Shown: positions 1,261 to 33,072 of the stretch, piece after piece
Layout: every line of letters starts with the position of its first letter
Position numbering within the stretch: position 1 is the first letter of the stretch
From: an uncultured Pelagibacteraceae bacterium
GTDB taxonomy: Bacteria > Pseudomonadota > Alphaproteobacteria > Pelagibacterales > Pelagibacteraceae
Length of the DNA: 44,364 nucleotides
Reading direction: 5' to 3'
Assembly: GCA_902589505.1 (NCBI GenBank)
Contig: CACITE010000009.1
Span: forward strand, 1-44,364
Notes under the pieces: model-generated
Told to the model about the DNA's origin: nothing
Seen by the model: only the letters and a program-made list of their open reading frames with translations
The model's database searches: none
Made by a program: the position numbers and the translations under genes

Positions 1261-1313
1261 AAACACTTATATTTTGTTATACTTAGGATAATAATTTAAT
1301 TTCTATTACAATC

Positions 1314-2042
1314 ATGAAGCCAGTTTGTATTATACCAGCTAGAAAAGGAAGCAAAAGAATCAAAAACAAAAATATAAAATTATTTTTAGGAAAACCTTTA
1401 ATAAGCTACACAATAAAAATTGCAAAAAAATCAAAATTATTTAGTAGAATAATTGTTTCAACAGATAGTAAAAAAATTGCAAGAATTGCGAAAAATAATG
1501 GTGCAGATGTTCCATTTATCAGGAATAAAAAAATATCTAACGATTATGCTACATCAATAGAAGTTTTGTTAGATTGTATTCATAAAATTAAATCAAAAAA
1601 TATTAAATATCATTTTCTTCTTTACCCTGGTGCAGTTTTAATAAATAAAAATGATCTAGTTAAGGCTTATCAAATAATCAAGAAAAAAAAAGCTCAACGC
1701 CTTGCGGTAATGACAAATTATAATGTTTCTCCGGAAGGAGCTTGTAAAATAATAAAAAACAATTTTATAAATTTCAATTGGCCAAAACACAATACTATTA
1801 ATTCCAAAAGAAAAAAACGTTTAGTAAAATCTTCTAAAATAATTCACGACACAGGATCATTTTATATATACGAAACAAAAGCGCTATTGACCGCAGAAAA
1901 AAAGAAAGTCGCTAATAGCTATTATTTTATTAGTAAAAAAAAAACTACTTACTATTTGTTGCACAGATTAAAATCGGTTGATATCAACACTATGGAAGAT
2001 TTTAAATTTGCCGAATTTTTGTATAAATTTAATCTTAAATAA
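1314..2042 (+). CDS. pseF: Pseudaminic acid cytidylyltransferase-like (PseF/NeuA family)
   Basis: 242 residues. Enzymes of this family transfer CMP from CTP to a nonulosonic acid, giving the activated sugar for surface glycans. The N terminus shows the nucleotide-binding signature IIPARKGSKRIKNKN and then FLGKPLISY, diagnostic of CMP-nonulosonate synthetases. The DTGSFYIY stretch and the C-terminal VDINTMEDFKFAE resemble PseF more than NeuA. The ATG at 1314 puts the signature at residue 5, as in relatives. It contains an A10 run near 1935-1944. No other pse, leg or neu gene lies in the window, so the sugar could be pseudaminic, legionaminic or another nonulosonic acid. It converges on tRNA-Ser. 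Family is sure; exact substrate is not. Confidence 0.75.
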   Translation: MKPVCIIPARKGSKRIKNKNIKLFLGKPLISYTIKIAKKSKLFSRIIVSTDSKKIARIAKNNGADVPFIRNKKISNDYATSIEVLLDCIHKIKSKNIKYHFLLYPGAVLINKNDLVKAYQIIKKKKAQRLAVMTNYNVSPEGACKIIKNNFINFNWPKHNTINSKRKKRLVKSSKIIHDTGSFYIYETKALLTAEKKKVANSYYFISKKKTTYYLLHRLKSVDINTMEDFKFAEFLYKFNLK

Positions 2043-2055
2043 ATTAACAATTAAA

Positions 2056-2145
2056 TGGCGGAGAGAGTGGGATTCGAACCCACGGTACCTTTGACAGTAC
2101 ACAAGCTTTCCAAGCCTGCGCCTTAAACCGCTCGGCCATCTCTCC
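2056..2145 (-). tRNA. tRNA-Ser(GGA)
   Basis: On the minus strand the acceptor GGAGAGA pairs with TCTCTCC, followed by discriminator G and an encoded CCA (2058-2056). The anticodon loop TTGGAAA gives anticodon GGA, the D-arm box reads GCCGAGCGGTTTAAGGC, the T arm holds GGTTCGAATCC, and there is the long variable arm expected of tRNA-Ser. Its 5' end lies only 2 bases after the lepA stop codon (2148-2150) on the same strand, so it is probably cut out of the lepA transcript. Confidence 0.97.
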
Positions 2146-2147
2146 AT

Positions 2148-3956
2148 CTAAGTTTCTTTATTTATTCTCAAAACTCCGATAAAAGCTTCTTGAGGAATTT
2201 CAACTTTGCCAAATTGTTTTGCTCTGGCTTTTCCTTTTTTTTGTTTATCTAATAATTTTCTTTTTCTATCTCTTGCTCCCCCTCCATGAATTTTGGTAAG
2301 GACGTCTTTTTTAAATCCTTTAATTGTTTCTCTGGCAATAATTTTCCCTCCTATAGCAGCCTGGATAGGAATTTGAAAATTATGTCGTGGAATTAATTCT
2401 TTAAGTTTTTCACAAACTTGTCGACCTTGAGACTGGGCAAAATCTTTATAAATAATCATGGATAAGGCGTCCACAGGCTCCGCGTTAACAAGTATTCCCA
2501 TTTTAACTAAATTTCCTTCTTTATAACCTGTGATTTCATAATCAAAACTAGCATAACCACTCGATAAAGATTTAAGACGATCATAAAAATCAAAAACAAC
2601 TTCGTTTAATGGTAGTTCATAACTTAGGACTGCACGATTTCCTGAATAGGTCAAATTATTTTGAATTCCTCTTTTGTCTTGGCATATTTTAATAATTGAG
2701 CCTAAATATTGATCTGGGGTAATTATTGTGGCTTTTATCCAAGGCTCTTCTATTGATAATATTTGAGTTGGATCCGGCATGTCAGTTGGATTTTGCAATT
2801 CTTTAGTAGATCCATCTCTTTTATTAATTTTATAAATTACACCGGGCGTTGTTGTTATAAGATTGATATCAAATTCTCTCTCTAATCTTTGTGTTACTAT
2901 TTCTAGATGAAGTAGACCTAAAAAACCGCAACGAAAACCTAGCCCCAAAGCACTCGAAGCTTCTGGTTCATATGAAAAACTGGAATCATTAAGTTTTAAT
3001 TTTGCAATTCCATCTTTAAGTTTTTGATACTCAGAATTATCAACCGGAAACAAGCCACAGAAAACCACTGGTTTACTTGGTTTAAATCCTGGTAATGGCT
3101 TATCTATAGGATTTTTTACATCGCATATAGTATCTCCTACTTTGGTATCAGATAAATTTTTTATTCCTGTAATAATAAAACCAATTTCTCCTGATGAAAT
3201 TTTATCTACATCTTTTGGTTTTGGAGTAAAAACTCCAACTTTCTCGATTGTATGTTCAGTATTATTTGACATCATTCTAATTTTCATTCCCTTTTTTAAA
3301 CTTCCGTCAATAGCTCTTACCAAAATTACGACTCCCAAGTAACTGTCATACCAACTATCTACAAGCAAACACTTCAAAGGCTTTTCAAAATTTCCTTTGG
3401 GAGGAGGTAAAATTTTTACTATAGATTCTAAAATATCATCTACCCCTTCGCCTGTTTTTCCAGAGCAATTTATTGTTTTGGTTGTATCTATCCCAATAAC
3501 ATCTTCGATTTGTTTTTTTACCTTTTCAGTGTCTGAAGCTGGTAAATCAATCTTGTTTAGTACAGGAATAATTTCATGGTTATTATCAAGCGCTTGATAT
3601 ACGTTAGCCAAGGTTTGTGCTTCAACCCCTTGTGAGCTGTCAACAATCAAAATAGAGCCTTCGCAAGCTGACAATGATCTGCTAACCTCGTAACTAAAAT
3701 CAACATGACCTGGTGTATCAATAATATTAAGGATGTAATCTTTTCCATCTTTTGCTTTATAGGTTAATCGAACTGTTTGTGCTTTTATTGTAATGCCTCT
3801 TTCTCTCTCTATGTCCATTGAATCTAAAACTTGTTCTTTCATTTCTCTTTCTGTAAGACCTCCGCATTTATGAATTAATCTATCTGCTAAAGTAGATTTT
3901 CCGTGGTCTATGTGCGCAATTATTGAAAAATTGCGAATATTTTCATTACTGGACAT
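2148..3956 (-). CDS. lepA: Elongation factor 4 (LepA), back-translocating GTPase
   Basis: 602 residues, close to the 599 of E. coli LepA. LepA is a ribosome-bound GTPase acting on translocation and on ribosome biogenesis. The G1 motif AHIDHGKS is at residues 14-21, followed by the G3 motif DTPGH and G4 NKID. The C-terminal LepA-specific domain is present, with the basic [19 protein letters not shown] segment near the end. The start ATG shares one base with the pheT stop (TAATG at 3958-3954), so the two are translationally coupled. lepA is the last protein gene of the thrS-infC-rpmI-rplT-pheST run and ends 2 bases before tRNA-Ser. Confidence 0.97.
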
Positions 3957-6358
3957 TAGGATCTTAGAGTAGCGCCTGTTGTTTCTTGAACTATTGATAT
4001 TATTTTTTTACTTACTTCCTCAATATCTTTCTCACTTAAAGTTTTATCTTTAGGTTCTAATGTTACACTAAAGGCTATAGATTTCTTGCCTGATGTAATA
4101 TTTTCTCCTTGATAAACATCAAAAATTTTAACATTTTTTATTAAATTCTTATCAATTTTTTTAACAAAATTTATAATTTCTCCAGAGCTATATTTTTCAT
4201 CAATTACAAAAGCAAAATCTCTGACCACTTTTTGATAATCAGAAACAACAAATTGGGGTTTTGCTTCTCTAATTTTCTTTCTAGACTCAGGCACATTATC
4301 TAAAAAAATTTCAAAACCTAAAATATTATCTGTTTTTAAATCTAATTTTTTAATAATTGATGGATGAATTTCTCCAAAGTATGCTAATTCTGGGCCGCTT
4401 GAAGATCCCAATGACAATAAGCCAGATCTTCCGGGGTGGTACCATTTTTTTGATTTATTGCTGACTGTTATCTTTGAACTATCAATACCAATTTCATTTA
4501 AAATTCTTAAAGCATCATTTTTAATATCAAAAACGTCAAAGTTTCTCTCTTTTTCAATCCAATTTTTTCTTGAGTATTTTCCTGTTTTAATTGCACCAAT
4601 CATAGTTGATTGTTCTCCAGGTTTGTTGCCTTTAAAAATAGGTCCTATCTCGAACATCATTAAATCTTCAAAATTTCTATGAATGTTTTTTTTAGCTCCA
4701 ATAATTAAATTTGAATAAAGTGATGATCTAAGTACATCTAAATCAGTCGAAATAGGATTGGATAATTTTATCTCACTTTTTAAATCTGAAAATAGAATAT
4801 TTGTTTTTGAATCTGTAAATGACCAGGTAACTGCTTCGGTATAACCCTTTGCCGCAACTGATCTTTGAGCAAAATGAAAAATTTTTTGTCTATAATTTAA
4901 TGTATCTTTAACATTTTCCTTTTCAGGACTAATTAAAGGAACTTTATCATAACCTTTAATTCTCGTTAACTCTTCTATAAGATCTATATCTTCTTTAATA
5001 TCTGGCCTCCAAGTTGGTGGCAAAACTTTCATTTTCTTTCCATTCATTTTTAAAGAACAGCCTAGAGATGTCAAAATTTTTTTTATTTCTGCACTAGTAA
5101 TTGTAAATCCAATAACTTTGGAAAATTTTTCTGGTTCTAAATCAATTATTTTTCTTTCATCTTTTAACTTGCCTTCTATTGAAAACTTGCTTGCTTCACC
5201 TCCACACATATCCAATATCATACATATTCCAAGTTCTAGACCTATTTTTATAGAATCAGGATCTATACCTCTTTCAAACCTATATTTTGCATCAGTATCA
5301 ATGTTTAGCATTTTGGAAGTTTTCCTGGTTGAGGTTGGAAAAAAATATGCGGATTCTAATAAAATATTTTTTGTAGACATTTCTGTGCCAGATCTAGTTC
5401 CGCCGATAATTCCTCCAAGACCCAAAACACCTGATTTATCACTTATTGCACACATATTGTTTTCAAGTGTATATTTTTTATTATCCAGAGCTTCAAATGA
5501 CTCACCTTTTTTTGAATTTCTAACAATAATTTCCTGATCAATCTTATCAGCATCATAAGCATGCAAAGGTCGATTTAAATCAAACATTACATAATTAGTA
5601 GCGTCTACAATTGCCGAAACTGGTTTCAAACCTAAAGAAATAATTCGTTTTTTAAGCCAATCAGGACTTTCTTTGTTTTGAACATTTCTAATATAAACAC
5701 TTCCAAAAATAGCACATCCTTGTCCTTTTTCTTTTTTTATTGAAACTTTAATTGGATTTTTAAATTTTTGATTTATTTTAATAGGAGGTTGTTTTTTCAA
5801 GCGCCCAATGCCAGAAGATGCTAAATCCCTGGCAATGCCTCTAACTCCTAAACAATCAGGCCTGTTTGGAGTAATAGCAATATCCATAGTTTTTTCTCCA
5901 GTATTTTTAAAATATTTTTCTCCAATATTTTTTTCTTTTTTATTTAACTCAATAATTCCCTCTTTATCTGAAGATTCATTAAGTTCATATCCCGAACAAA
6001 GCATTCCGTGAGATTCTATTCCTCTTATTTTTGCTATTTTCAATTTCATATTAGTTTTAGGAACAACTGATCCTGGAGGTGCATAAACCGCAAACAAACC
6101 TTCCCTGGCATTTTGAGCCCCACAGACAACTTTAACTAATGTTCCTGAGCCTATATCTATATCGCAAAGTTTTAGTTTATCTGCGTTAGGATGTTTTTGT
6201 AATTTTATAACTTTACAAACAATAAAGTTATCTAGGTTTGCATTTGATGATTTTATATTTTCTACTTCCAACCCAATCTCTGTCAAACGTTCTGCAACTT
6301 GATTTAAGTTTGCTTTAGTTTCTAAATGATTTTTTATCCAAGACAAAGAAGTTATCAT
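3956..6358 (-). CDS. pheT: Phenylalanyl-tRNA synthetase beta subunit
   Basis: 800 residues (E. coli about 795). This is the large subunit of the alpha2-beta2 enzyme that charges tRNA-Phe; it carries the editing site and tRNA-binding modules. In order there are an N-terminal EMAP-like tRNA-binding domain (about residues 40-150, with [14 protein letters not shown]), the B3/B4 editing region, B5, the catalytic-like core and a C-terminal FDX-ACB anticodon-binding domain (from about residue 705, beginning near [13 protein letters not shown]). Its start overlaps the pheS stop by 4 bases (ATGA, 6358-6355), and its stop overlaps the lepA start by one. Confidence 0.97.
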
Positions 6359-7422
6359 CTGCTTAAACCTCTATAATTTGTAGGTACATCAAGTGGATCA
6401 AATCCGTAAAACTCTAACCATCTGATATCGCTTTCAAAAAAAGCTCTAAGATCATTGATTCCATATTTCAACATTGCTAATCGATCTATTCCTACACCGA
6501 AAGCATATCCCTGATATTGTTTTGAATTAACTTTTGCATTTTTTAAGACTTGAGGATGAACCATTCCACAACCAAGTATTTCTAACCACTTGTCACCTTC
6601 TCCAATTTTAATTTTTCCATCTTGAATTTTGTATCCAATATCAACTTCCGCAGAAGGTTCTGTAAAAGGAAAATGACTAGGTCTAAACCTTATTTTCACT
6701 TTTTCAACTTCAAAAAATTTTTTAACAAAATAATATAAACAACCTTTAAGATGTCCCATATTAATATTCCTATCAATATGTAAGCCTTCTAATTGATGAA
6801 ACATCGGTGAATGAGTTTGATCACTATCATGTCTATAAGTTCTTCCAGGAGCAATTATTTTAAAAGGCGGTTTACTTTTTAACATAGTTCTAATTTGTAC
6901 TGGGGATGTGTGTGTTCTTAAAAGCAAATCTTTAGTATTACTTAGATAAAAAGTATCATGCATATCTCTTGCTGGATGATTTTCAGGTGTGTTGAGAGCA
7001 GAAAAATTATAATATTCATTTTCAACATCAGGACCTTCCTCAACTGAAAATCCAATTTCAGAAAATATAGAAGTAACTTCATCTATAACTTGTGAAACTG
7101 GATGAATTTTACCTGTAAAAAAAGTTCTGCCAGGTAAAGTGACATCTATTTTTTCATTTTTAAGCTTTTTGTTTATTTCCGATTGATCAAAATTTTCAAG
7201 TTTTTTTTCTAATATTTCTGTTACTTTTGTTTTTAAAAAATTTAAGTTTGAAGCATAATCTTTTCTTTGTAATTGTTCTAAACTACCAATTTTTTTAAAA
7301 AGTTCAGTTATAATTCCTTTTTTTCCAAAAATTTCGGTTTTAATTGATTCGTATGAGCTACGATCTTTTATGCTTTTTATTTTATTTAAAATTTCCGATT
7401 CGATTTGATTAAAATTTTCCAT
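6355..7422 (-). CDS. pheS: Phenylalanyl-tRNA synthetase alpha subunit
   Basis: 355 residues (E. coli 327). This is the catalytic class II subunit that activates phenylalanine and joins it to tRNA-Phe. An N-terminal coiled coil (about 1-90) is followed by the class II core: [21 protein letters not shown] (motif 2 area), [10 protein letters not shown], and motif 3 as [14 protein letters not shown] near residues 310-323. It lies 55 bases after rplT, the longest gap within this run after thrS, and overlaps pheT by 4 bases. The rplT-pheS-pheT order is the standard bacterial one. Confidence 0.97.
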
Positions 7423-7477
7423 ATCAAAATTTCTCTAATGATTCTCTCTTTTGATTACGATAATAGAAATAAGTCCC

Positions 7478-7834
7478 TTAGTTAAGGGAGGATTGTACTT
7501 TTTTTACAATAGATTTAAATACTTTTGGATTATTATAGGCTATATCAGCTAAAACTTTTCTATCTAGCTTAATTCCTGACTTATTAAGACCATCAATAAA
7601 CTTTGAATAAGTTATTCCTTCTTCTCGCACTCCTGCGTTTATTCTCTGTATCCACAAAGATCTAAATTCTCTTTTTTTTGCTCTTCTATCCCTATAAGCA
7701 TATTGCATTGCTTTTTCTAAGGACTGTTTTGCTACACGAATAGTATTTTTTCTTCTTCCGTACTGGCCCTTGACCTGTTTTAATACTTTTTTGTGGCGTG
7801 CATGACTAGTAACTCCTCTTTTTACTCTCGACAT
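7478..7834 (-). CDS. rplT: 50S ribosomal protein L20
   Basis: 118 residues, the usual length. It starts [19 protein letters not shown] and carries the strongly basic N-terminal extension, then the [19 protein letters not shown] signature. L20 is an early assembly protein of the large subunit that binds 23S rRNA; in some bacteria it represses its own operon. Only one base separates its start from the rpmI stop, so the two are probably coupled. Confidence 0.98.
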
Positions 7835-7835
7835 T

Positions 7836-8042
7836 TTAACCTCTCAAGCTGTAAGGCATATATGACTTAACAATTTTCGAATCTTGTTTAGACATAATTG
7901 TTGTACCTCTTTGTTTTCTTATTTGCGAATTAGTTCTTTTAATCATACCATGTCTTTTGCCAGATTGTGGCATTTTAACTTTTCCACTAGCAGTTAATTT
8001 AAATCTTTTTTTTGCAGAACTCTTAGTTTTCAATTTAGGCAT
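7836..8042 (-). CDS. rpmI: 50S ribosomal protein L35
   Basis: 68 residues, typical for L35. It begins [15 protein letters not shown] and contains [19 protein letters not shown], the family signature of this small basic large-subunit protein. It lies 47 bases after infC and one base before rplT. The 47-base gap (8043-8089) is AT-rich and shows no clear hairpin or terminator. Confidence 0.98.
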
Positions 8043-8089
8043 AAAATTAATGCCGTTTATACAAATTTTATATTTAATTTACAATAAAA

Positions 8090-8635
8090 TTATAATGGCT
8101 GAATTATCATAATGATTTGCTTTCCTTCGAATTTTGGCTCTATCTCGATCTTTCCAAGTTCAGAAGTGTCTTTAATGATACGATCCATAAGTTCATTACC
8201 TAAATGTGTGTGTTGCATTTCTCTTCCTTTAAATTTCACTGTAAATTTTACTTTGTCACCTTTTTCCAAAAACTTTTTAGCATTTTTAATTTTAAAATTA
8301 TAATCGTGAATTTCTGTAACTGGCCTAAGTTTAATTTCTTTTAAATTAATAATTTTTTGTTTTTTCTTAGCTTTGTTTGCTTTTTTTTGTAAATCGTACT
8401 TATATTTTCCTATATCGATAATTTTACAAACTGGAGGATTGGCGTTTGGCGAAATTTCAATTAAATCTAAACCTTCTCGTTTAGCAATGTTTATTGCCTC
8501 TCGAGTGGAAAGCGTTCCAAGATTTGTTCCATCGCTGCTTATAACTTGAACTTCTTGTGAACGAATTTTTTCATTTGCCCTCGGTCCTAAAGGTTTTGTT
8601 CTTTTTTGAAAATAGTTTTTATACTGAAAGGACAC
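8090..8635 (-). CDS. infC: Translation initiation factor IF-3
   Basis: 181 residues (E. coli 180). IF-3 binds the 30S subunit, blocks premature joining with 50S and checks the initiator tRNA and start codon. The N domain has GPRANEKIRSQEVQVI and GTLSTREAINIAKREGLDLIEI; the C domain has KIKNAKKFLEKGDKVKFTVKFKGREMQH. The start I chose is GTG at 8635-8633, directly after the thrS TAA (8638-8636) with no base between. There is no upstream alternative because thrS occupies the sequence, and the next in-frame ATG lies far inside. Many bacteria start infC with a rare codon so that IF-3 limits its own synthesis; GTG here may be a mild version of this. Confidence 0.96.
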   Translation of the reverse strand: MSFQYKNYFQKRTKPLGPRANEKIRSQEVQVISSDGTNLGTLSTREAINIAKREGLDLIEISPNANPPVCKIIDIGKYKYDLQKKANKAKKKQKIINLKEIKLRPVTEIHDYNFKIKNAKKFLEKGDKVKFTVKFKGREMQHTHLGNELMDRIIKDTSELGKIEIEPKFEGKQIIMIIQPL

Positions 8636-10552
8636 TTAATTTATTGGTAGTTTATTTTTTTTTGATATTTGTTTAATTGCTAGATCAAGTGACAAGGTTT
8701 CTTGTTTTTCTGATCCCAATTTTCTTATAGTGACACTTTTATTTTTCTTTTCTTTTTGACCACAAATTAACAAAAGCGGGACTTTTGATAACGAATGCTC
8801 TCTAATCTTATAATTTATTTTTTGATTTTTTAAATCCACCTCGGTGTTTATACCTGCTTTCGTACATTCTTCAAATATTTTTTTTGCATAATTATCAAAT
8901 TCTGAGGCTATCGGAAGAACAACTACCTGTAGTGGGGCTAACCATAATGGTAATTTTCCAGCGTAATGTTCTATTAAAATTCCAATAAATCTTTCTAAAG
9001 AGCCGAATAAAGCTCTATGTAACATAACTGGAATTTTTTTTGTTCCATCGTTGGAAATATAAGATGCTCCAAGTCTTGATGGTAAATTTAAATCAACCTG
9101 TAAAGTGCCACATTGCCAATCTCTTCCAATAGTGTCTCGAAGCACAAAATCTATCTTTGGTCCATAAAACGCACCTTCGCCTTTATTGATTTCATATTTT
9201 AATTTTGATTGTTTTATTGCTTTTAACAATGCAGTTTCTGCTTTATCCCAAATCTTGTCGTCACCAACTCTTTTCTCTGGTCTATCTGAAAATTGCAAAA
9301 GAACATTTGAAAATCCTAAGTCTTTATAAATCTCAAGTATTAATTTTGTTACACTCAAGCACTGTTCAGTAATTTGATCTTCGGTACAAAAAATATGGGC
9401 ATCATCTTGTGTAAAAGCTCTAACTCTTAACAAACCATGTAGTGCTCCAGAAGGTTCATATCTGTGCACTTTACCAAACTCTGATAACTTAAGCGGAAGA
9501 TCTCTATAACTTTTTAACCCTTGATTAAACACTTGTATACAACCAGGGCAATTCATTGGTTTAATTGCAAAAGTTTTTTCATCGGGCGTTTCAGAAGTAA
9601 ACATATTATCACCAAATTTTTCCCAATGCCCAGATTGTTCCCACAAAGTTTTGTCTAACATTTCGGGTGTATTAATTTCTCTATAACCAGCGTTCTTTTG
9701 TTTTGCTCTCATGTAATCAACTAATTTTTGAAATAAAGTCCAACCTTTGTGATGCCAAAATACTGCTCCGGGACTTTCTTCTCTAAAATGAAATAAATCC
9801 ATTTCTTTCCCAAGTTTTCTATGGTCTCTTTTTTCTGCTTCTTCAAGACGCACTAAATATTCATCAAGTTCCTTTTGAGATGGCCAAGATGTTCCGTAAA
9901 TTCTTTGCAACATTTCATTTTTTGAATCTCCTCTCCAATAGGCACCGGAAACTTTTGTAAGTTTAAAATACTTTCCAATCTTTCCCGTTGAATTAAGGTG
10001 AGGACCCCGACATAGATCGTACCATTTTCCATGATAATATATGGAGACCTCCTGGTCTTTTGGAATACTATCAACAAGCTCTACTTTATATTTTTCTCCA
10101 ATATTCTTATAATGGTCTTTGGTCTTTTTTCTTTCCCAAACTTCTCTTTTCGTGGGCTCATCCTTTTCAACAATTTCTTTCATTTTTTTTTCTATTTTTT
10201 CTAGATCTTGAGGAGTAAATGGTTCTTTCCTATAAAAATCATAATAAAAACCATCTTTAATAGCTGGACCAATAGCTATTTTTGTTCCAGGAAACAATTC
10301 TTGAACTGCCATTGCCATAATATGTGTAGCATCATGTCTCATAGCGTCTAATCCTTCCTTGTCTTTAGAAGTAATTATTTTTACTTTAGAATCTTTTTGA
10401 ATTTGATAGCTTAAATCTTTCAGCTCACCGTCAACCTCCATTATTAGTGCAGCTTTTTCTAAACTTTTGCTAATTTTTTTTGCTATTTCAAAACCATTTA
10501 TTGCTTTTGAAAATGGAATTTTTTTACCATCTGGTAGTTTTATATCTGGCAT
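8636..10552 (-). CDS. thrS: Threonyl-tRNA synthetase
   Basis: 638 residues (E. coli 642). It charges tRNA-Thr and hydrolyses mischarged Ser-tRNA. In order: TGS domain (1-62), editing domain with H73 and H77 (HDATH) and C181/H185 (CRGPH), class II core with zinc-binding Cys in MNCPGC and His in HRYEPSGALHG and MLHRALFGSLERF, and a C-terminal anticodon-binding domain. The editing histidines fall at the same numbers as in E. coli, which supports this start. The ATG immediately follows the stop of the upstream glycosyltransferase (TAAATG), so its expression may depend on that gene's transcript. Confidence 0.97.
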   Translation of the reverse strand: MPDIKLPDGKKIPFSKAINGFEIAKKISKSLEKAALIMEVDGELKDLSYQIQKDSKVKIITSKDKEGLDAMRHDATHIMAMAVQELFPGTKIAIGPAIKDGFYYDFYRKEPFTPQDLEKIEKKMKEIVEKDEPTKREVWERKKTKDHYKNIGEKYKVELVDSIPKDQEVSIYYHGKWYDLCRGPHLNSTGKIGKYFKLTKVSGAYWRGDSKNEMLQRIYGTSWPSQKELDEYLVRLEEAEKRDHRKLGKEMDLFHFREESPGAVFWHHKGWTLFQKLVDYMRAKQKNAGYREINTPEMLDKTLWEQSGHWEKFGDNMFTSETPDEKTFAIKPMNCPGCIQVFNQGLKSYRDLPLKLSEFGKVHRYEPSGALHGLLRVRAFTQDDAHIFCTEDQITEQCLSVTKLILEIYKDLGFSNVLLQFSDRPEKRVGDDKIWDKAETALLKAIKQSKLKYEINKGEGAFYGPKIDFVLRDTIGRDWQCGTLQVDLNLPSRLGASYISNDGTKKIPVMLHRALFGSLERFIGILIEHYAGKLPLWLAPLQVVVLPIASEFDNYAKKIFEECTKAGINTEVDLKNQKINYKIREHSLSKVPLLLICGQKEKKNKSVTIRKLGSEKQETLSLDLAIKQISKKNKLPIN

Positions 10553-11719
10553 TTATTGGGACAACTCTATCAATTTTTTATATTCAGTAAAGGTGCTCTG
10601 ACACATTTTATCAACATCAAATTTTTTTAATACATTTTTCCTACCTTCTATACCTAAAGATTTCAATAAATTATAGTTTTGTAGCATTACATTTTCTATT
10701 AAATTGGCTAAGTCTTGTGGATCATTATTTTTAAACAAATAACCTGTTTTATCTCTAATTATAGTTTCTTTTGAACCTCCTATATCACTAGCAATAATTG
10801 GAATTTCCATTGATTGCGCCTCTACAGAAACTCTTCCAAATGCTTCGGGAGAAGTAGAACAAGAGCAAACTAGGTTGCTTATAGCATAAGCAACGGGCAT
10901 TTCTTGACAGTGTTCAATAAATTTTATTACTTTATTCAATCTATGTTGCAGCACTAAATCAATAAGTTGTTTTTTGTAAACTTTTCTTCCTTGATCACTT
11001 CCGAGTATTATAGCTTCGAACGGCGGAATATTATTTTTTTCTGAAATAATTTTAATAGATTCTATAAATATTTTTTGTCCTTTCCAATTCGTTAGTCTTC
11101 CGGGTAACAAAATAATAAATTTGTTTCTGTCTATGTTGTACTGTTTAGAAAATTTATCCAATTTTATTGGTGAGATTTTTTTAGGATTAAAATATCCAGT
11201 ATTTATTCCCCTAAAAATAACTAAAAGTTTTCTTTTTTTTTCTAAAAAAAAATTCCCATAATTCTCGTTAATATGAGAAAAAATAAAATTTGAACCAGCG
11301 ATCACTAGATTTGATCTTACCATAATTGAATTATAAAATTTCTTTAATTTATTAGTAAAATTGTAAGTACCATGAAAAGTTGTTACAAATTTTCTAAAAG
11401 CTAGTCTTGTAGCAAACAAACAGGACCATGCCGGTGCTCGGCTTCTGGCATGAACAATATCAATATTATAAATAAGTATTATAAAAAAAATTATTATAGA
11501 ATTAAATAAAATCAAAATAGGGTTTTTTGATTGGACTGGTAGTTTAAACACTTTTACTTTTTTTTTGTCTATAAATCTAAGTAGTTCACCACCACTAGTA
11601 ATAATAAAAGATTTAGCGTTTTGCTCTGGCAAAAAATGCGCTAAATCATAACATCCTGTTTCGGCTCCCCCATACCCTAGCCTAGGTATTACTTGTAAAA
11701 CTTTGATATTTTTTTTCAT
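10553..11719 (-). CDS. GT4-family glycosyltransferase
   Basis: 388 residues. The N terminus VLQVIPRLGYGGAETGCYDLA is the acceptor-side glycine-rich loop of GT-B enzymes. The C-terminal donor domain has LLPGRLTNWKGQKIFIESI and the GT4 motif EAFGRVSVEAQSMEIPIIASDIGG with the conserved E-x7-E glutamates. It probably adds a sugar from a nucleotide-sugar donor during lipopolysaccharide or other surface glycan synthesis at the inner face of the membrane; donor and acceptor cannot be told. It is the first gene of the minus-strand run into thrS and stands back to back with the hydrolase at 11746, only 26 bases away. Confidence 0.88.
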   Translation of the reverse strand: MKKNIKVLQVIPRLGYGGAETGCYDLAHFLPEQNAKSFIITSGGELLRFIDKKKVKVFKLPVQSKNPILILFNSIIIFFIILIYNIDIVHARSRAPAWSCLFATRLAFRKFVTTFHGTYNFTNKLKKFYNSIMVRSNLVIAGSNFIFSHINENYGNFFLEKKRKLLVIFRGINTGYFNPKKISPIKLDKFSKQYNIDRNKFIILLPGRLTNWKGQKIFIESIKIISEKNNIPPFEAIILGSDQGRKVYKKQLIDLVLQHRLNKVIKFIEHCQEMPVAYAISNLVCSCSTSPEAFGRVSVEAQSMEIPIIASDIGGSKETIIRDKTGYLFKNNDPQDLANLIENVMLQNYNLLKSLGIEGRKNVLKKFDVDKMCQSTFTEYKKLIELSQ

Positions 11720-11733
11720 TATTTTAAAATAAT
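11718..11733. repeat. 16-base perfect palindrome between divergent starts
   Basis: ATTATTTTAAAATAAT is its own reverse complement. It overlaps the ATG of the GT4 gene and fills most of the 26-base gap to the hydrolase start at 11746. It could be an operator, or just chance in AT-rich DNA. Confidence 0.4.
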
Positions 11734-11745
11734 ATAGTATGTCAA

Positions 11746-12522
11746 ATGAATTACAAAAAATCTAAATATTTTACAATTCTAGGTAAAAGAAAAATTAAAT
11801 ATTTATTTATTAAAAAAAATAGCCAAATTACAGTAGTTTTTTTCCATGGTTTTATGTCAGATATGACTGGCTCAAAGCCTAAAATGATTAAAAGATTTTG
11901 TGCAAAACATAAATTTAACTTTTTGACGTTTGAATATTCTGGCCATGGCAAATCTACAGGAAAGTTTACTGAAGGAAATATAAGTCGATGGACGAATGAA
12001 GCAAAAAAATTAATCAAATCAAAAATTAAAAATAATCAAAATTTAATTTTTATCGGATCTAGCATGGGAAGCTGGATAGCATTAAATTTGCTCTTTGTTT
12101 TTAAGAAAAAAATCAAGGGATTTATTGGTATAGCATCTGCTCCTGAATTTTTGGAAAATATTATGTGGAAAAAATTTAATAAAAAAATTAAAAAAGAAAT
12201 AACTACCAAAAAAATCTATCATTTAGAATATGGAAATTATACTTATCCCATTACAAAACAGTTAATTTTTGATGGAAGAAAAAACAAAATTTTTAATAAA
12301 AAAATTAATTTTAAAATACCAATAACACTTTTTCATGGATTAAAAGATGATGTTGTCCCTTTAGTTTTTTCAAAAAAAGTATTAAAAATTTTTACTAAAT
12401 CAAAAAAAAAATTAATAAAAATTAAAACTGGTGACCACAGTTTATCAAGAAAAAGTGATTTAAAAAAAATATATAAGGAATTAAAATATATGATTTATAA
12501 CAACTTAAAAACTAAAGAATAA
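11746..12522 (+). CDS. Alpha/beta hydrolase (serine hydrolase)
   Basis: 258 residues, no signal peptide, so cytosolic. The alpha/beta-hydrolase landmarks are present: oxyanion-hole region FFHGFMSD near residue 33, nucleophile elbow GSSMGS with Ser106, acid Asp201 or Asp202 in HGLKDDVVP, and His231 in GDHSLS. The fold fits the S33/esterase-like group; the substrate (ester, thioester or peptide) cannot be predicted. It sits at the edge of the polysaccharide genes on the opposite strand to its neighbours, diverges from the GT4 gene, and its 3' end overlaps the convergent GT2 gene by 11 bases. It is very lysine- and A-rich, like the other island genes. Confidence 0.85.
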   Translation: MNYKKSKYFTILGKRKIKYLFIKKNSQITVVFFHGFMSDMTGSKPKMIKRFCAKHKFNFLTFEYSGHGKSTGKFTEGNISRWTNEAKKLIKSKIKNNQNLIFIGSSMGSWIALNLLFVFKKKIKGFIGIASAPEFLENIMWKKFNKKIKKEITTKKIYHLEYGNYTYPITKQLIFDGRKNKIFNKKINFKIPITLFHGLKDDVVPLVFSKKVLKIFTKSKKKLIKIKTGDHSLSRKSDLKKIYKELKYMIYNNLKTKE

Positions 12523-27625: not shown

Positions 27626-28537
27626 CTATACCGCTAATTTATAGGCAAAATCTTTTCCTAAACTTTCTCTTAGGTGAGCACAAAAACGCGCTCCTTCTGC
27701 ACCATCTATAACTCTATGATCATAAGATAAAGATAAAGGAAGCATTATCTTATTTTCGTACTTACCACCTATAAAAACTTGTTTCCTTTCAGCTCTACCT
27801 ATCCCTAGAATAGCTACCTCTGGCTGGTTAATAATAGGTGTAAAAAAGCTACCTCCTATGCTTCCTAAACTTGAGATCGTCATTGATCCACCAAAAAATT
27901 CTTTTTTATCAATTTTTAGATCTTTACAAAGTTTAGCTATCTTTTTTAGTTCTTGTCCTAGTTCAGTTATATCTTTTTTGTCTGCATTTCTAATCTTTGG
28001 AACCATTAAACCGTGAGGAGTATCCATTGCTATACCTATGTGAAAATATTTTTTATATATCAGTTTTTCTTTTTTTAAATCCAATGAAGAGTTAAAATTT
28101 GGGTAATCTTTTAAGGCTTTTACTAAAGCTCTTATGATAAATGGTAATGGAGTAATTGAAAGTTTTTCACCAGTATAAAGATCTCTCAAAGACTTTCTGA
28201 ACTTTTCCATTTCAGTAATATCTGCTTCGTCATGTTGTGTAACATGTGGAATTTCACTCCAAGATTTTTCTAGGTGAGGACCTGCAATTTTTTTTAATCT
28301 TGGAATAGGCTTTATATCAATTTCACCAAATTCAGAATGTTCATATTGTTCTACTTTTATAGTTTGTTTTTTTTCAGTTTTTTCTGAAATTGATTTTTTA
28401 ATAAAAGATTTTACATCTTCTTTGGAAACTCTTCCTAATCTCTCTGAACCCTGTATTTGATAGATGTCAGCTCCAAACTCTCTTGCCAATTTTCTAACAT
28501 TTGGACTTGCGCTAATTATATTTTTTTTATCACCCAT
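27626..28537 (-). CDS. aceF: Pyruvate dehydrogenase E2 (dihydrolipoamide acetyltransferase) lacking a lipoyl domain
   Basis: 303 residues. It opens directly with the peripheral subunit-binding domain (about 8-48: ASPNVRKLAREFGADIY, then GRVSKEDVKSFI), which docks E1 or E3. A linker (49-75) leads to the acetyltransferase domain, which ends with the active-site motif SYDHRVIDGAEG (His274, Asp278). Normal E2p proteins start with one to three lipoyl domains of about 80 residues; here there is none, and only 2 bases separate this start from the aceE stop, so nothing is hidden upstream. The missing lipoyl domain is found fused to aceE. E2 cores of this family form 24- or 60-mers and transfer the acetyl group to CoA. 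Confidence 0.93.
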   Translation of the reverse strand: MGDKKNIISASPNVRKLAREFGADIYQIQGSERLGRVSKEDVKSFIKKSISEKTEKKQTIKVEQYEHSEFGEIDIKPIPRLKKIAGPHLEKSWSEIPHVTQHDEADITEMEKFRKSLRDLYTGEKLSITPLPFIIRALVKALKDYPNFNSSLDLKKEKLIYKKYFHIGIAMDTPHGLMVPKIRNADKKDITELGQELKKIAKLCKDLKIDKKEFFGGSMTISSLGSIGGSFFTPIINQPEVAILGIGRAERKQVFIGGKYENKIMLPLSLSYDHRVIDGAEGARFCAHLRESLGKDFAYKLAV

Positions 28538-28539
28538 AT

Positions 28540-31500
28540 TTATAATTCTGTAGGAATAGGTTTATTTTTATCAATATTATATTTTTTCATTGCTTTTTCG
28601 GCATATTTTGATGGAATAAGTTGTTCCTTTGCAAGAGCACTTAAAGCATAGGTAACAATATGTTCTTTGTCTACTTCAAAAAAATTCCTTAATTTCTTTC
28701 TTCCATCACTTCTTCCATAGCCATCAGTACCAAACGAATAAAAAGGTTTTGAAAGATAAGGTCTAATCTGATCAGCAAAACCCCTAACATAGTCCGAAGC
28801 AGCGATAATTGGACCATCTCTTTTTTCTAAACATTCCTCCACATAGGATTTCTTCGGCTTTTCTCCAGGATTTAAAAGATTTTTTCTTTCAGTTTCCATA
28901 CCATCTTTTCTCAATTCATTGAAACTTGTAACGCTCCAAACATCACTATCAATATTATATTCATCACTCAAAACCTCTGCCGCTGCTATCATCTCCCTCA
29001 AAATCGTTCCACATCCTAATAGTTGAATTTTAATTTTTCCTTTTTTGTTAAACTCTTTAAACAGATACATACCCTTTAGTATTCCTTTTTCACAATCTTT
29101 TGGGAGCGCTGGATGTTTATAATTCTCATTCATTACTGTTATGTAATAAAAAATATTTTCTTGTTTATCGTGCATTCTTCCTATTCCTTCTCTTAAAATC
29201 ACTGCTAGTTCATATGCGAATGTTGGATCATAGCTAATGCAGTTTGGAATTGTTGATGCTAGTAAATGGCTGTGACCATCCTGGTGTTGCAACCCTTCTC
29301 CTGCCAACGTCGTTCTTCCTGCTGTTGCTCCTATTAAAAAACCTCTTGATTGAGAATCTCCGGCAGCCCAAATTAGATCCATTACTCTTTGAAAACCAAA
29401 CATAGAATAGAATGTGTAAATTGGTATCATTTCTAGATCGTGATTTGTGTATGAAGTACCCGCAGCTATCCACGAAGACATAGCTCCGGATTCTGTTAGC
29501 CCTTCTTCTAATACTTGCCCTTTTTTATCTTCTTTGTAAGAGCTAAGTTGTTCCGAATCTACAGGCTCATATTTTTGACCTTCGTGCGCATATATACCGA
29601 TTTTTTGAAAAAATCCCTCCATACCAAAAGTTCTTGCTTCGTCAGGTATAATTGGAACTAATTTAGGAGCAATATTTTTATCTCTTAATAAACTTGTTAA
29701 CATTCTTACTAAGGCCATGGTGGTCGACATCTCGCGACCTTCGGAAGACCTAAGCATAGTTTCAAAAATTTCTTTTGAAGGTTTTTTGATTGATTTTGCA
29801 AAAGAATTTCTTTCTGGTAAATTTCCCCCCAGCTTCATTCTCATTTCTTTAATATATTTTATCTCTTCTGATTTTTCATTTGGTTTATAAAACTCTATAT
29901 TTTTTACTTGTTTGTCTGTAAGGGGAATATCAAAGCGGTCTCTATAATAGAGCAAATCTTCTTCTCCTAATTTTTTTTGCTGGTGCGTGGTATTTATACT
30001 TTCTCCTGATTTACCCATGCCATAACCCTTGATTGTTTTTGCTAAAATCACAGTAGGTTGTCCTTTGGTTTTCATTGCTTCGTGATAAGCCGCATAAACT
30101 TTATGGGGGTCGTGTCCTCCTCTATTGAGTTTCCAAACATCTCTATCGGTCATTGTTGAAATCAATTCCGTTAACTCAGGATATTTTCCAAAAAAATTCT
30201 TTCTTACATAAGCTCCGTCATTTGCTTTGAACGCTTGATATTCGCCATCAACACACTCGTTCATTCTTTTTATTAATAATCCTGTTTTATCTTTTGCGAG
30301 CAATTGATCCCAATATGACCCCCATATAACTTTAATTACATTCCATCCCGCTCCTCTAAAAATACCTTCCAGCTCCTGTATGATTTTCCCGTTTCCTCTA
30401 ACTGGGCCATCTAATCTTTGTAGATTGCAATTAATAACGAATATTAAATTATCTAATTTTTCTCTTGAAGCTAAACTAATTGCTCCTAAAGACTCAGGTT
30501 CGTCCATTTCTCCATCGCCAAGGAAAGCCCAAATTTTTCTATCTTCATCTTTCAATAAACCTCTATTGATTAAATATTTTGTAAATCTCGCTTGATAAAT
30601 TGATAAAATTGGACCAAGCCCCATTGATACAGTTGGGAATTGCCAAAACTTAGGCATTAGCCATGGGTGAGGATAAGAAGATAATCCATCGACTCCTACT
30701 TCTTGTCTAAAATTTCCTAACTGTTTTGCAGTAAGTCTTCCTTCTAAGAAAGCTCTTGCGTACATTCCTGGTGCGCTATGACCTTGAAAATAAACTAAAT
30801 CACCCCCAAATTTATTATTTTTTGCTCTCCAAAAGTGATTCATTCCTACATCGTAAAGAGTAGCTGCAGAAGCAAATGTTCCTATATGGCCTCCGAGTTC
30901 AGAATTTTTCTTGTTAGCCTTAACTACCATTGCAGCAGCATTCCATCTAATTAAAGACCTAATTCTTCTTTCTATATTTTGATCTCCTGGAGATTTAGTT
31001 TCTGATTCAACGGGTATAGTATTTATATAAGGAGTAATTCTTGTTAAAGGTCTATTAAATCCTTCTTTGTAAGCTTCGTCAATTAGCTTTTTTAGTAAGT
31101 AATGAGCACGATCAGATCCATCTTTTGCAATAACAGCTTCTAATGAATCCAGCCATTCTTTAGTTTCTGTTGGGTCAATATCTGAGCCATTAGATCGTGC
31201 AGGAATTTTTTTTTGGCTCTTCTTTTGTTCAATTTTATTTACCGAAGATTCTGCTTGTTTAATAATTTTTTCAGTTTCTGGCAAAATATCATGTTCTCTT
31301 AATACAAGCGGTTCTGCTTTCTTTGGTTTTATTTTTTGTATATTTTCTTTTTTGTTAATCTTTTCAGTGTTTTCGAACTTATCATCTTCTATGACGGCTA
31401 GAACGCTTCCTTTTGAAACTTTATCTCCTATTTTTACTTCAATCGAAGAAATTTTTCCAGAAAAGGGGGAAGGAACTTCGACACTAGATTTATCACTTTC

Positions 31501-31614
31501 TAGAGTAACAACTGGATCATTTTTTTTTATTACATCTCCAGCTTTAGGTAAAATTTCAATTATTTCTACATTTTCAAAATCACCTATATCTGGAACAGTT
31601 ATTTTTGTGGCCAT
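28540..31614 (-). CDS. aceE: Pyruvate dehydrogenase E1, homodimeric type, with N-terminal lipoyl domain
   Basis: 1024 residues from ATG 31614; E. coli AceE has 887. Residues 1-78 are a complete lipoyl domain: MATKITVPDIGDFENVEIIE, lipoyl-lysine Lys42 in LESDKSSVEVPSPFSG, closing GSVLAVIED. A charged, Lys/Glu/Pro-rich linker (79-142) joins it to a full AceE: DIDPTETKEWLDSLEAV, NTIPVE, GDLVYFQGHSAPG, the thiamine diphosphate motif beginning GDGEMDEPES near residue 370, and the closing GTDGYGRSDGR. E1 decarboxylates pyruvate and reductively acetylates lipoyl groups, so it carries its own substrate arm. A second ATG at 31659 would add 15 residues of no known domain; I prefer 31614 because lipoyl proteins start there. 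E3 (lpd) is not nearby. Confidence 0.95.
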   Translation of the reverse strand: MATKITVPDIGDFENVEIIEILPKAGDVIKKNDPVVTLESDKSSVEVPSPFSGKISSIEVKIGDKVSKGSVLAVIEDDKFENTEKINKKENIQKIKPKKAEPLVLREHDILPETEKIIKQAESSVNKIEQKKSQKKIPARSNGSDIDPTETKEWLDSLEAVIAKDGSDRAHYLLKKLIDEAYKEGFNRPLTRITPYINTIPVESETKSPGDQNIERRIRSLIRWNAAAMVVKANKKNSELGGHIGTFASAATLYDVGMNHFWRAKNNKFGGDLVYFQGHSAPGMYARAFLEGRLTAKQLGNFRQEVGVDGLSSYPHPWLMPKFWQFPTVSMGLGPILSIYQARFTKYLINRGLLKDEDRKIWAFLGDGEMDEPESLGAISLASREKLDNLIFVINCNLQRLDGPVRGNGKIIQELEGIFRGAGWNVIKVIWGSYWDQLLAKDKTGLLIKRMNECVDGEYQAFKANDGAYVRKNFFGKYPELTELISTMTDRDVWKLNRGGHDPHKVYAAYHEAMKTKGQPTVILAKTIKGYGMGKSGESINTTHQQKKLGEEDLLYYRDRFDIPLTDKQVKNIEFYKPNEKSEEIKYIKEMRMKLGGNLPERNSFAKSIKKPSKEIFETMLRSSEGREMSTTMALVRMLTSLLRDKNIAPKLVPIIPDEARTFGMEGFFQKIGIYAHEGQKYEPVDSEQLSSYKEDKKGQVLEEGLTESGAMSSWIAAGTSYTNHDLEMIPIYTFYSMFGFQRVMDLIWAAGDSQSRGFLIGATAGRTTLAGEGLQHQDGHSHLLASTIPNCISYDPTFAYELAVILREGIGRMHDKQENIFYYITVMNENYKHPALPKDCEKGILKGMYLFKEFNKKGKIKIQLLGCGTILREMIAAAEVLSDEYNIDSDVWSVTSFNELRKDGMETERKNLLNPGEKPKKSYVEECLEKRDGPIIAASDYVRGFADQIRPYLSKPFYSFGTDGYGRSDGRKKLRNFFEVDKEHIVTYALSALAKEQLIPSKYAEKAMKKYNIDKNKPIPTEL

Positions 31615-31836
31615 AATTGATGTTTTATTTATACCACAATTTAATCCTTTTTCAGCCATGTAAATATTGTCACTAGGGTAATGACCTTAATTTTAAAAAA
31701 TATAACAAAATTATTTCAACCTAATTACAATAATCTTGATGCTCAATTTTGGGTACAAAAAGTAATTTTGAAAAAGTATTTAAAAAAAAATTAACAATTT
31801 AGTAAAACTATCCAGAAAGAAGCTTTAAATAACACT

Positions 31837-31842
31837 TATACT
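31837..31842 (+). promoter_or_regulatory. Candidate -10 box for tRNA-Arg and the small ORFs
   Basis: TATACT, 18 bases before the mature tRNA 5' end. No convincing -35 hexamer was seen, so support is limited to position and sequence. Confidence 0.4.
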
Positions 31843-31860
31843 TTGATAGAAAACCAGTGA

Positions 31861-31937
31861 GCGCCTGTAGCTCAATTGGATAGAGCGCTTGGCTACGGAC
31901 CAGGAGGTTCTGGGTTCGACTCCTAGCAGGCGCGCCA
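31861..31937 (+). tRNA. tRNA-Arg(ACG)
   Basis: The acceptor GCGCCTG pairs with CAGGCGC, followed by discriminator G and encoded CCA. The D arm has GCTC/GAGC, the anticodon stem CTTGG/CCAGG encloses loop CTACGGA (anticodon ACG, expected to be edited to inosine by TadA), and the T arm carries GGTTCGACTCC. A TATACT at 31837-31842 lies at a suitable distance upstream for a -10 box. The 200-base gap before it (31660-31860) holds nothing else I can support. Confidence 0.97.
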
Positions 31938-31948
31938 GAAAGAATTTT

Positions 31949-32062
31949 ATGTCTAAAAGATATAGTGGAAAATCATTTAAAGACTCAAGTGTAATGAAAA
32001 AACCTAAACTAAGTTTTAAAGAAAAAAGGAAGTTGAAAAGAGAAAAAAGGAATAGAAAATGA
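31949..32062 (+). CDS. Small basic protein, 37 aa, unknown
   Basis: ATG at 31949, stop TGA 32060-32062. It starts 11 bases after the tRNA-Arg CCA. Over half of the residues are Lys or Arg, and it ends KEKRKLKREKRNRK. It begins MSKRYSGKSFKDSSVMKK. Composition suggests nucleic-acid or ribosome contact, but no family was recognised. Its stop overlaps the start of the next tiny ORF (ATGA). It could be non-coding; support comes from its place between tRNA and thioesterase and the overlap arrangement. Confidence 0.45.
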   Translation: MSKRYSGKSFKDSSVMKKPKLSFKEKRKLKREKRNRK

Positions 32063-32136
32063 GCTTAGTAAAGGCTGTTATATTTTTTTTTATTTTAATA
32101 ATAATGTTTGTGCTAACATTAACTATAATATTATAA
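32059..32136 (+). CDS. Single-helix membrane peptide, 25 aa, unknown
   Basis: ATG at 32059 overlaps the preceding stop by 4 bases, and the stop TAA is at 32134-32136, 6 bases before the thioesterase start. An AAGGA at 32047-32051 is at good Shine-Dalgarno distance (7 bases), which is unusual in this window. The peptide has a short MSLVK head and then one unbroken hydrophobic stretch of about 20 residues ending at the stop: a minimal transmembrane peptide. Function unknown. Confidence 0.45.
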   Translation: MSLVKAVIFFFILIIMFVLTLTIIL

Positions 32137-32142
32137 CAATTT

Positions 32143-32562
32143 ATGAGCAAAGATTTTGAACAAATAAGTCTTAAATCAGGTTTCATGAAACATAATGGTG
32201 GGCTATTATTTAGAACTATTTCGGTAAATGAATACGAGTTTAAAACCAAAATAAATGAAAATCATCTTAATGCTGCAGGTATTACTCATGGGGGTTTTAT
32301 TGCTGCATTCGTTGATGCAGGAGGTGGCACAGCAGCACACAAAGCAGCGGATCAAAATCCATGCGTAACTATATCATTAGAAATTAAATTTATTTCTGCA
32401 ATAAAATTAGGTCAAGAGTTATATGGAAAGACAAAAATACAAAAAAAAACTAAATCGATGGTTTTTTTAACATGTGAGTTGACCGCATCAAATAAAATTG
32501 TAGCAACAGCTTCCGGCGTATGGAAAATATTGAAATTATCTGGAGCTGGACCAGGCGGGTAA
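32143..32562 (+). CDS. PaaI-family hotdog thioesterase
   Basis: 139 residues, a single hotdog domain. HLNAAGITHGGFIAAFVDAG holds the HGG turn and the following acidic residue (Asp in FVDAGGG) that PaaI-type acyl-CoA thioesterases use, and the strand VTISLEIKFISAI completes the pattern. It probably hydrolyses an acyl-CoA in the cytosol; which one is unknown. The start ATG lies 6 bases after the 25-aa ORF. The 3' end overlaps the convergent DUF6580-like gene by 27 bases, so the GAGPGG tail is encoded opposite that gene's last codons. Confidence 0.9.
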   Translation: MSKDFEQISLKSGFMKHNGGLLFRTISVNEYEFKTKINENHLNAAGITHGGFIAAFVDAGGGTAAHKAADQNPCVTISLEIKFISAIKLGQELYGKTKIQKKTKSMVFLTCELTASNKIVATASGVWKILKLSGAGPGG

Positions 32563-33072
32563 AGATTTATAAATAAATATTCCTGGGTAAGCAAAAATTA
32601 AAGTTGATAAAAAAGTGTTTCCAAAAAATGGTATTGCTAAAATATAACACTCTATCAAACCATTTAAATTTTTATCATATGGAAGATTATCTAATCCTGG
32701 ACTTCCTAAAATCCACACGCCAAAATTTGAAATAATAAAAAATATAAGCGATCCTGCAAAACCAAAAATAAATAAATTTTTAAAATTTATTTTTTTACTA
32801 ATTTTATGAAAAATAAAAGTAATTAACAGCAATGAAGCATAGACAAAAAATACATTTTCATAAAAACCAATAAATAAGTCCGATATCAACATGGCTATTA
32901 ATAAAATTATGAGTGAAAAATTTAAATTTTTAAAAAAATAACCACTTAGTATTGCTACGGCTATAACAGGTGTAAAATTCGGTGGATGAGGTATTAACCT
33001 TGCAAGTGCCAAGATTAATATTAAACCAATTGGAAATATTTCTTTTCTTGATGCCATTAATAAATTTTGCAT
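32536..33072 (-). CDS. Small membrane protein, DUF6580-like, probably cobalamin-linked
   Basis: 178 residues with five to six hydrophobic helices. The N-terminal LARLIPHPPNFTPVIAVAILSG is the hallmark I associate with DUF6580, a family of ECF S-component-like membrane proteins often placed beside cobalamin receptors. It follows btuB by 4 bases and so shares its B12 riboswitch. This suggests a part in B12 or precursor movement through the inner membrane, but no ECF ATPase or BtuCD gene is nearby. An internal ATG at 33057 is an alternative start. Confidence 0.75.
   Translation of the reverse strand: MQNLLMASRKEIFPIGLILILALARLIPHPPNFTPVIAVAILSGYFFKNLNFSLIILLIAMLISDLFIGFYENVFFVYASLLLITFIFHKISKKINFKNLFIFGFAGSLIFFIISNFGVWILGSPGLDNLPYDKNLNGLIECYILAIPFFGNTFLSTLIFAYPGIFIYKSLPAWSSSR

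Follow-up and report, generated by a model that had tools for sequence, protein, structure and literature searches.

Two very small open reading frames, ORF1 and ORF2, separate a tRNA-Arg(ACG) gene from a thioesterase gene in an uncultured Pelagibacteraceae genome. Judging from comparative sequence analysis, both are very probably (with a probability of about 0.88) real protein-coding genes belonging to two unrelated families of the Pelagibacteraceae (SAR11), with ORF2 and the thioesterase gene forming the older arrangement and ORF1 being a later arrival. SAR11 genomes serve as showcases of streamlining in which little unknown is left. The two apparently undescribed, family-wide micro-proteins have no match among the Pfam or NCBIfam models and are so short that annotation pipelines could skip them; ordinary in kind, they are of interest for SAR11 biology and for small-protein annotation. 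ORF1 unites an extreme constancy of its N-terminus with a strong positional mobility. The window, that is the whole stretch of 44,364 nucleotides analyzed here, is contig C9 of a genome (G000) of 924,649 bases.

A literature search, which included three ORF1 peptide strings, found no description of either family. Both genes are also carried by G069, which we take to be 'Ca. P. ubique' HTCC1062, and ORF1 is located there in the gap after groEL, at about 166,322. The available part of an intergenic screen of HTCC1062 (PMC2704228) mentions several misannotated coding sequences in conserved gaps, and the ORF1 and ORF2 families could be among those of its supplement. In the same available part, Table 1 does not contain the groEL-ORF1 gap of G069, the GC content of which is 25.65% as compared with a table minimum of 26.4%. 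Small-protein catalogues such as GMSC (PMC11364881) may hold ORF1 and ORF2 sequences as unnamed clusters.

Gene arrangement

The tRNA-Arg(ACG) gene (31861-31937, plus strand) was identified by ARAGORN, with its CCA encoded, and by Rfam RF00005 at 31861-31934 with 62.7 bits. ORF1 (31949-32062, plus strand) begins 11 nt after the end of the tRNA (31937) and encodes a strongly basic protein of 37 amino acids, MSKRYSGKSFKDSSVMKKPKLSFKEKRKLKREKRNRK, with a net charge of about +13.5 and a pI of 11.2. ORF2 (32059-32136, plus strand) encodes a putative one-span membrane peptide of 25 amino acids, MSLVKAVIFFFILIIMFVLTLTIIL, with a GRAVY value of 2.77. The start of ORF2 and the stop of ORF1 overlap in an ATGA (32059-32062, plus strand), and an earlier in-frame start of ORF2 is impossible, as a TAG lies two codons ahead of the ATG. 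Six nucleotides separate the stop of ORF2 from the start (32143) of a gene for a 4HBT (hotdog) thioesterase (32143-32562, plus strand), which was assigned by PF03061 (E=2.3e-13) and by synteny and whose position downstream of ORF2 is conserved among some of the Pelagibacteraceae.

The preliminary description of this DNA had reported a basic 37-residue frame and a 25-residue frame with one hydrophobic segment, joined by an ATGA and filling the space between tRNA and thioesterase, and all of this was recovered. The use of the filled spacing (gaps of 11 nt and 6 nt, and a 4-nt overlap) as evidence for genes fared less well: the spacing itself is correct, but the argument is weak when taken alone, as ORF1 is missing at this site in 12 of 17 genomes of the genus that have the thioesterase. 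The Shine-Dalgarno sequence of ORF2 had been called one of the few good ones. Indeed AAGGA (32047-32051, plus strand), which lies within the 3' end of ORF1, is a 5-nt match, a length reached at just three of the 31 starts in a hand-made list that included ORF1 and ORF2. This site is kept in three of the five loci with the tRNA-side ORF1-ORF2-4HBT arrangement (the window, G022 and G014) and is missing in G016 and G005.

Conservation and selection

Thirty-four open reading frames of at least 20 amino acids, real genes included, overlap the 3-kb stretch between 30500 and 33500. The length of a frame is therefore no evidence for a gene, since small frames are common in this stretch. Such abundance speaks for the idea that neither ORF1 nor ORF2 is a gene and that both are accidents of AT-rich sequence. 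We consider this scarcely credible, as both frames are conserved as proteins across genera and the substitution patterns in both families, given below, refute it.

Of 147 family genomes searched with the single ORF1 sequence of the window, 85 gave a relative at E<=1e-3 and 95 at E<=1, usually in single copy. With profile A1, built from 21 members of which some came from the searched genomes, matches were obtained in 126/197 genomes of the order and in 120/149 near-complete ones. ORF1 was not found in the other 29 of these 149 near-complete genomes, some of which belong to the Pelagibacteraceae and some to the sister family f2. The conserved part of the protein is an extended arm with a near-invariant N-terminus, in which Y5, G7 and D12 are invariant, and the tail varies in length and sequence; forms from deep genera have 28-36 residues. 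In 41 of 52 distinct genes the first 14 residues are the same, MSKRYSGKSFKDSS, and are encoded there by 36 different DNA strings, so that conservation goes beyond the DNA level, a point on which the preliminary description had made its proposal depend.

ORF2 belongs to a second widespread family: profile A2 (18 members, taken from the searched genomes) matched in 153 of 197 family genomes and in 73 of the 77 that are near-complete. Its hydrophobic pattern is conserved, and replacements are constrained, largely among hydrophobic residues. Matches in genera g5, g9 and g12 were weak, mostly 22-31 bits, and in genus g5 the relatives were found as open frames lacking an ATG.

A comparison of synonymous and nonsynonymous changes, which the preliminary description had proposed, pointed to selection on both proteins. 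For the five ORF1 genes at the tRNA-Arg site, pN/pS was 0.128, as compared with a mean of 0.68 after column shuffling, and none of 300 shuffles gave a value as low. For ORF2, a random 15 of 40 genes gave 0.39 against a shuffle mean of 0.90 (0/200 shuffles as low). In larger sets, which were picked partly by protein motif so that pN is biased downwards, pN/pS was 0.207 over 51 ORF1 genes (1.22 and 2.65 in the shifted frames) and 0.406 over 40 ORF2 genes (0.73 and 3.4 in the shifted frames). Frame-breaking indels, which had been named as a possible refutation, were absent from the compared genes; for ORF1 this is partly by construction, as the 52 genes compared were chosen as open frames carrying the motif. 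Stops inside a few ORF1 profile matches (G033, G067, G081, G082) correspond to members that end earlier, and G169 holds an intact ORF1 copy together with a broken-looking fragment. The claim that both frames are genes was thus borne out by conservation at the protein level in the two families.

Relatives appeared to be limited to the Pelagibacteraceae as far as the sampled genomes go. All of the best 80 of 413 confirmed ORF1 loci in named genomes carried the label Pelagibacteraceae or Pelagibacterales. In 289 genomes of the class, profile A1 matched three family members and eight others (E 0.017-0.096), and profile A3 three family members and three others (E 0.017-0.027); the other matches cover part of the profile only and are read as chance. 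Likewise, profile A4 of ORF2 matched two family members in 190 class genomes, together with one weak match in G365 (E=4e-4), which lies in a 95-aa frame and is taken as chance. In 24 genomes of sister family f2, no match fell below E=0.19 for ORF1 or below E=0.08 for ORF2. On these sequence searches, there appears to be no credible relative of either protein outside the Pelagibacteraceae in the genomes sampled.

Two genomes showed apparent duplications of ORF1. In G005, a second, diverged copy (MSTRYSGKAFKDSSQMK...) lies on the minus strand of contig C57 (locus L154) near 9212-9102, 3 kb upstream of the first and within cargo. Two copies in G002 were rejected, as 1977-2087 is the mirror image of 11240-11350 in the 13,326-base contig. 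This locus (L096, contig C19) shows mirror symmetry about its midpoint, at least where ORF1 is located, apparently as an artefact of single-cell amplification, and the copies were counted as one.

History of the site

We compared loci fetched by thioesterase alone at 64% identity or more (L001-L022 and L061). ORF2 was directly ahead of the 4HBT gene in 22 of these 23 loci; the exception, L061, is a second thioesterase copy in G016, where neither ORF2 nor ORF1 is found. When loci fetched with the ORF2 profile were added, the count became 43 of 44 distinct loci, at thioesterase identities of at least 55.7%, but about half of the 44 were obtained with that profile and 22/23 is the fair figure. 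In 36 of the 44, the upstream flank that was fetched includes a tRNA-Arg(ACG) gene. At identities of 55.0% or less, ORF2 was missing ahead of the thioesterase in eight loci from other genera (L023-L030). ORF1 lies between the tRNA side and ORF2-4HBT in only five of the 44 loci, all from the genus of the window (G000, G022, G014, G016 and G005). In this genus, 17 of 23 genomes have the thioesterase; ORF1 is missing at the site in 12 of the 17, and ORF2 comes directly after tRNA-Arg in nine of these 12. The contrast between 22/23 (or 43/44) loci for ORF2 and 5/44 for ORF1 suggests that tRNA-Arg - ORF2 - 4HBT is older and ORF1 the newcomer. In the history that we propose, tRNA-Arg(ACG) - ORF2 - 4HBT would be the order that this part of the family conserves, with ORF2 as the older resident, and in a few genomes of the genus ORF1, a usually single-copy and positionally mobile gene, would have come to stand between the two. 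The earlier idea of ORF1 and ORF2 as a conserved pair beside tRNA-Arg was therefore not upheld: the conserved linkage is that of ORF2 and 4HBT, and ORF1 is mostly found elsewhere.

The ATGA overlap is present in all five loci that bear ORF1 at this site. ORF2 has 25 residues, starting from the overlap, in four of them, and 33 in G005. A 25-residue ORF2 also occurs in L013, L110, L112, L117 and L120, which lack ORF1, and the idea that ORF1 had trimmed the N-terminus of ORF2 was dropped for this reason.

Elsewhere, the surroundings of ORF1 are highly diverse. After removal of duplicates and of loci with short flanks, and taking the longest frames as neighbours, 118 distinct ORF1 loci showed 48 neighbour combinations, with 41 upstream and 26 downstream gene clusters, some of which are artefacts (the upstream frame of L205 looks like the reverse strand of groEL). 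In a stricter set with both neighbours of at least 100 amino acids, 34 combinations remained in 102 loci. ORF1 was beside ORF2-4HBT in five of the 118. The commonest downstream genes, named by eye, were typA (45 loci) and a SRAP-like gene (35). The upstream gene was on the strand of ORF1 in 96 of 117 loci, and no more than 20 nt away in 60 of these 96. ORF1 directly follows a yajQ-like gene in two g9 and two g12 loci, and is convergent with such a gene in two g5 loci. ORF2 also changes its company: it is ahead of 4HBT in genera g1, g3, g6, g8, g13 and g14, convergent with a uppP-like gene (named by eye) in the g2 and g4 loci examined, and immediately behind DoxX in those examined from g5, g9 and g12.

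Insertion hot spots

The region downstream of tRNA-Arg(ACG) looks like an insertion hot spot. VTC-domain and pyrophosphatase-domain proteins are encoded between tRNA-Arg and ORF1/ORF2 in L153 (G014), metallo-beta-lactamase/rhodanese and radical SAM genes in L154 (G005), and shorter inserts follow tRNA-Arg in L107, L102 and L151. In L152 (contig C4 of G022), the 3' end of tRNA-Arg recurs as a copy of 45 nt (93%) at 12390-12434, directly ahead of ORF1, and is preceded from about 1000 to 12400 by genes resembling those of type IV pili (T2SSE ATPase, a PilY1-domain protein and pilin-like proteins). This contig carries an apparent island at tRNA-Arg(ACG); within the 14 kb that was fetched, neither the intact tRNA nor an integrase was seen. 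An integrase suspected by eye at its start is not claimed, as Pfam gave no match and all PHROGs matches were to families of unknown function. Viral contigs yielded no match to the thioesterase.

A second hot spot was observed between groEL and ORF1, where varied genes occur that could be traced back to groEL in L251 (G160) and L253 (G227). Of the 45 typA-linked ORF1 loci, 17 lack groEL directly upstream, and the distance from ORF1 to typA is 84-86 nt in 36.

Possible function of ORF1

AlphaFold2, run on the single ORF1 sequence, gave residues 1-22 without helix and a helix at 23-35 (mean pLDDT 83.8, pTM 0.35). ORF1 would thus combine a conserved, extended arm (SKRYSGKSxKDxS..KKPK) with a basic helix behind it. 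No convincing match was found in Pfam, NCBIfam or the PDB chain sequences; the best PHROGs match had E=0.023 and concerned one of 21 members, and no relatives were found in viral contigs or phage records. Neighbours of ORF1, as named by eye, include typA, groEL, yajQ, tsaD, DEAD-box helicases and tRNA genes, and also transporters, glycosyltransferase-like or surface-sugar-like genes and a FAA-hydrolase-like gene. We tentatively predict that ORF1 is an accessory protein binding RNA or the ribosome, at somewhat less than even odds, because its neighbours mix translation and folding genes with transporters and surface-sugar-like genes. The apparent link to translation may simply reflect where the gene happened to settle. 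ORF1 would persist despite many gene moves, often right behind other genes or tRNAs, whose transcription it would use.

That ORF1 is a lineage-specific structural ribosomal protein or a ribosome-bound factor of the Pelagibacteraceae is a possibility that we hold with more reserve. Its size, its charge and the arm-plus-helix model fit a ribosomal protein, as do the usual single copy and the near-invariant N-terminus of a gene whose location wanders, but it matches no curated ribosomal family or solved ribosomal chain and was not found in some near-complete genomes. A role in place of bS21 was rejected, bS21 having been found in 49 of 60 family genomes. The basic character of ORF1, and its position at the edge of variable DNA in the two hot spots (tRNA-Arg - insert - ORF1, and groEL - insert - ORF1 - typA), could instead indicate a peptide of the nucleoid or one that binds DNA, or else a gene carried as a passenger by integrating islands. 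This seems unlikely, given the lack of relatives in the viral contigs and phage records and the presence of ORF1 in most of the family, unlike that expected of a passenger; in G022, moreover, ORF1 is beyond the partial tRNA copy, which is read as the host side.

Small basic ribosomal or ribosome-associated proteins are exemplified by bS21, bL36 and bTHX. ORF1 resembles these in being tiny, very basic, conserved, usually present in one copy and variable in location. It differs from them in showing no sequence relation in Pfam, NCBIfam or the PDB chains, and in being restricted, as far as the sampled genomes show, to a single bacterial family, where it coexists with bS21. The general proposal that ORF1 is a ribosome- or RNA-bound protein specific to the Pelagibacteraceae lineage, and as such an undescribed and widely kept component of translation, is put forward as a rather doubtful one. 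If true, some of the most abundant marine bacteria would have an undescribed component in their translation machinery.

Possible function of ORF2

The single hydrophobic segment of ORF2 reaches the C-terminus and its few charges lie near the N-terminus, and this distribution suggests a one-span peptide with the N-terminus inside. CydX, AcrZ and KdpF are one-span small membrane subunits, which ORF2 resembles in its 25-33 residues, one predicted hydrophobic helix and short N-terminus. It differs from them in having no convincing match in Pfam (best E=0.034), NCBIfam or the PDB chains, and no constant large partner gene across the loci examined. Our speculative prediction for ORF2, offered with considerable doubt, is that it assists a membrane protein as a one-span accessory peptide in the N-in orientation.

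Three other readings of ORF2 seem less probable. It begins right after DoxX in the loci examined from the deeper genera g5, g9 and g12, and could be a dedicated partner subunit of that protein. We find this improbable, and its obligate form was rejected, since DoxX (PF07681) was not detected in five single-contig g3 genomes (G024, G061, G077, G084 and G114), all with an ORF2 match; an ancestral partnership with DoxX is possible. The short distance between ORF2 and the 4HBT start, 2-9 nt in most loci with a one-base overlap in L148 and L150, would suit a leader peptide or a regulatory upstream frame for the thioesterase, with no job of its own. This is more improbable still, as the relatives next to the uppP-like gene (g2, g4) or DoxX (g5, g9, g12) have no adjoining 4HBT and the replacements are constrained, mainly hydrophobic for hydrophobic. 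Finally, the ATGA overlap in 5/5 loci with both frames, together with the Shine-Dalgarno sequence in the window, might indicate that ORF1 and ORF2 form one functional unit, such as a toxin-antitoxin pair or a basic/hydrophobic two-peptide system. The chances of this appear very remote: the two are inherited separately, with ORF1 beside ORF2-4HBT in 5/118 loci, which departs from the obligate linkage of a toxin-antitoxin pair, and ORF2 precedes 4HBT without ORF1 in 38 of 44 loci.

Expression and flanking sequences

The upstream tRNA-Arg(ACG) gene may be a source of transcription for ORF1 and ORF2. The distance of just 11 nt between the tRNA and ORF1 makes it probable that the tRNA promoter serves these genes as well, in which case ORF1, ORF2 and the 4HBT gene would be carried on the tRNA precursor. 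The ATGA makes translational coupling possible, and ORF2 would probably be translated in part by re-initiation after ORF1. A scan for consensus promoters was uninformative, with eight promoter-like sites as compared with 4.3 expected (sd 2.5). It found one site on the plus strand at the end of ORF1 (32033-32060), and none on this strand at 31732-32032, a range that includes the sequence just ahead of the tRNA. A search of 31660-32600 found no plus-strand terminator.

A block like CTTTAAATA...TTTGATA recurs on the 5' side of tRNA-Arg in the window (about 31820-31860) and in L002, L003, L007 and L010. It was recognized by eye and left unflagged by the consensus scan, and may be the promoter of tRNA-Arg. 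Further upstream, the minus strand of the window encodes a pyruvate-dehydrogenase-E1-like protein of 1039 amino acids (28540-31659), with an apparent lipoyl-like domain at its N-terminus, and an adjoining E2-like protein of 303 amino acids (27626-28537) that seemingly has no such domain, both as judged by eye.
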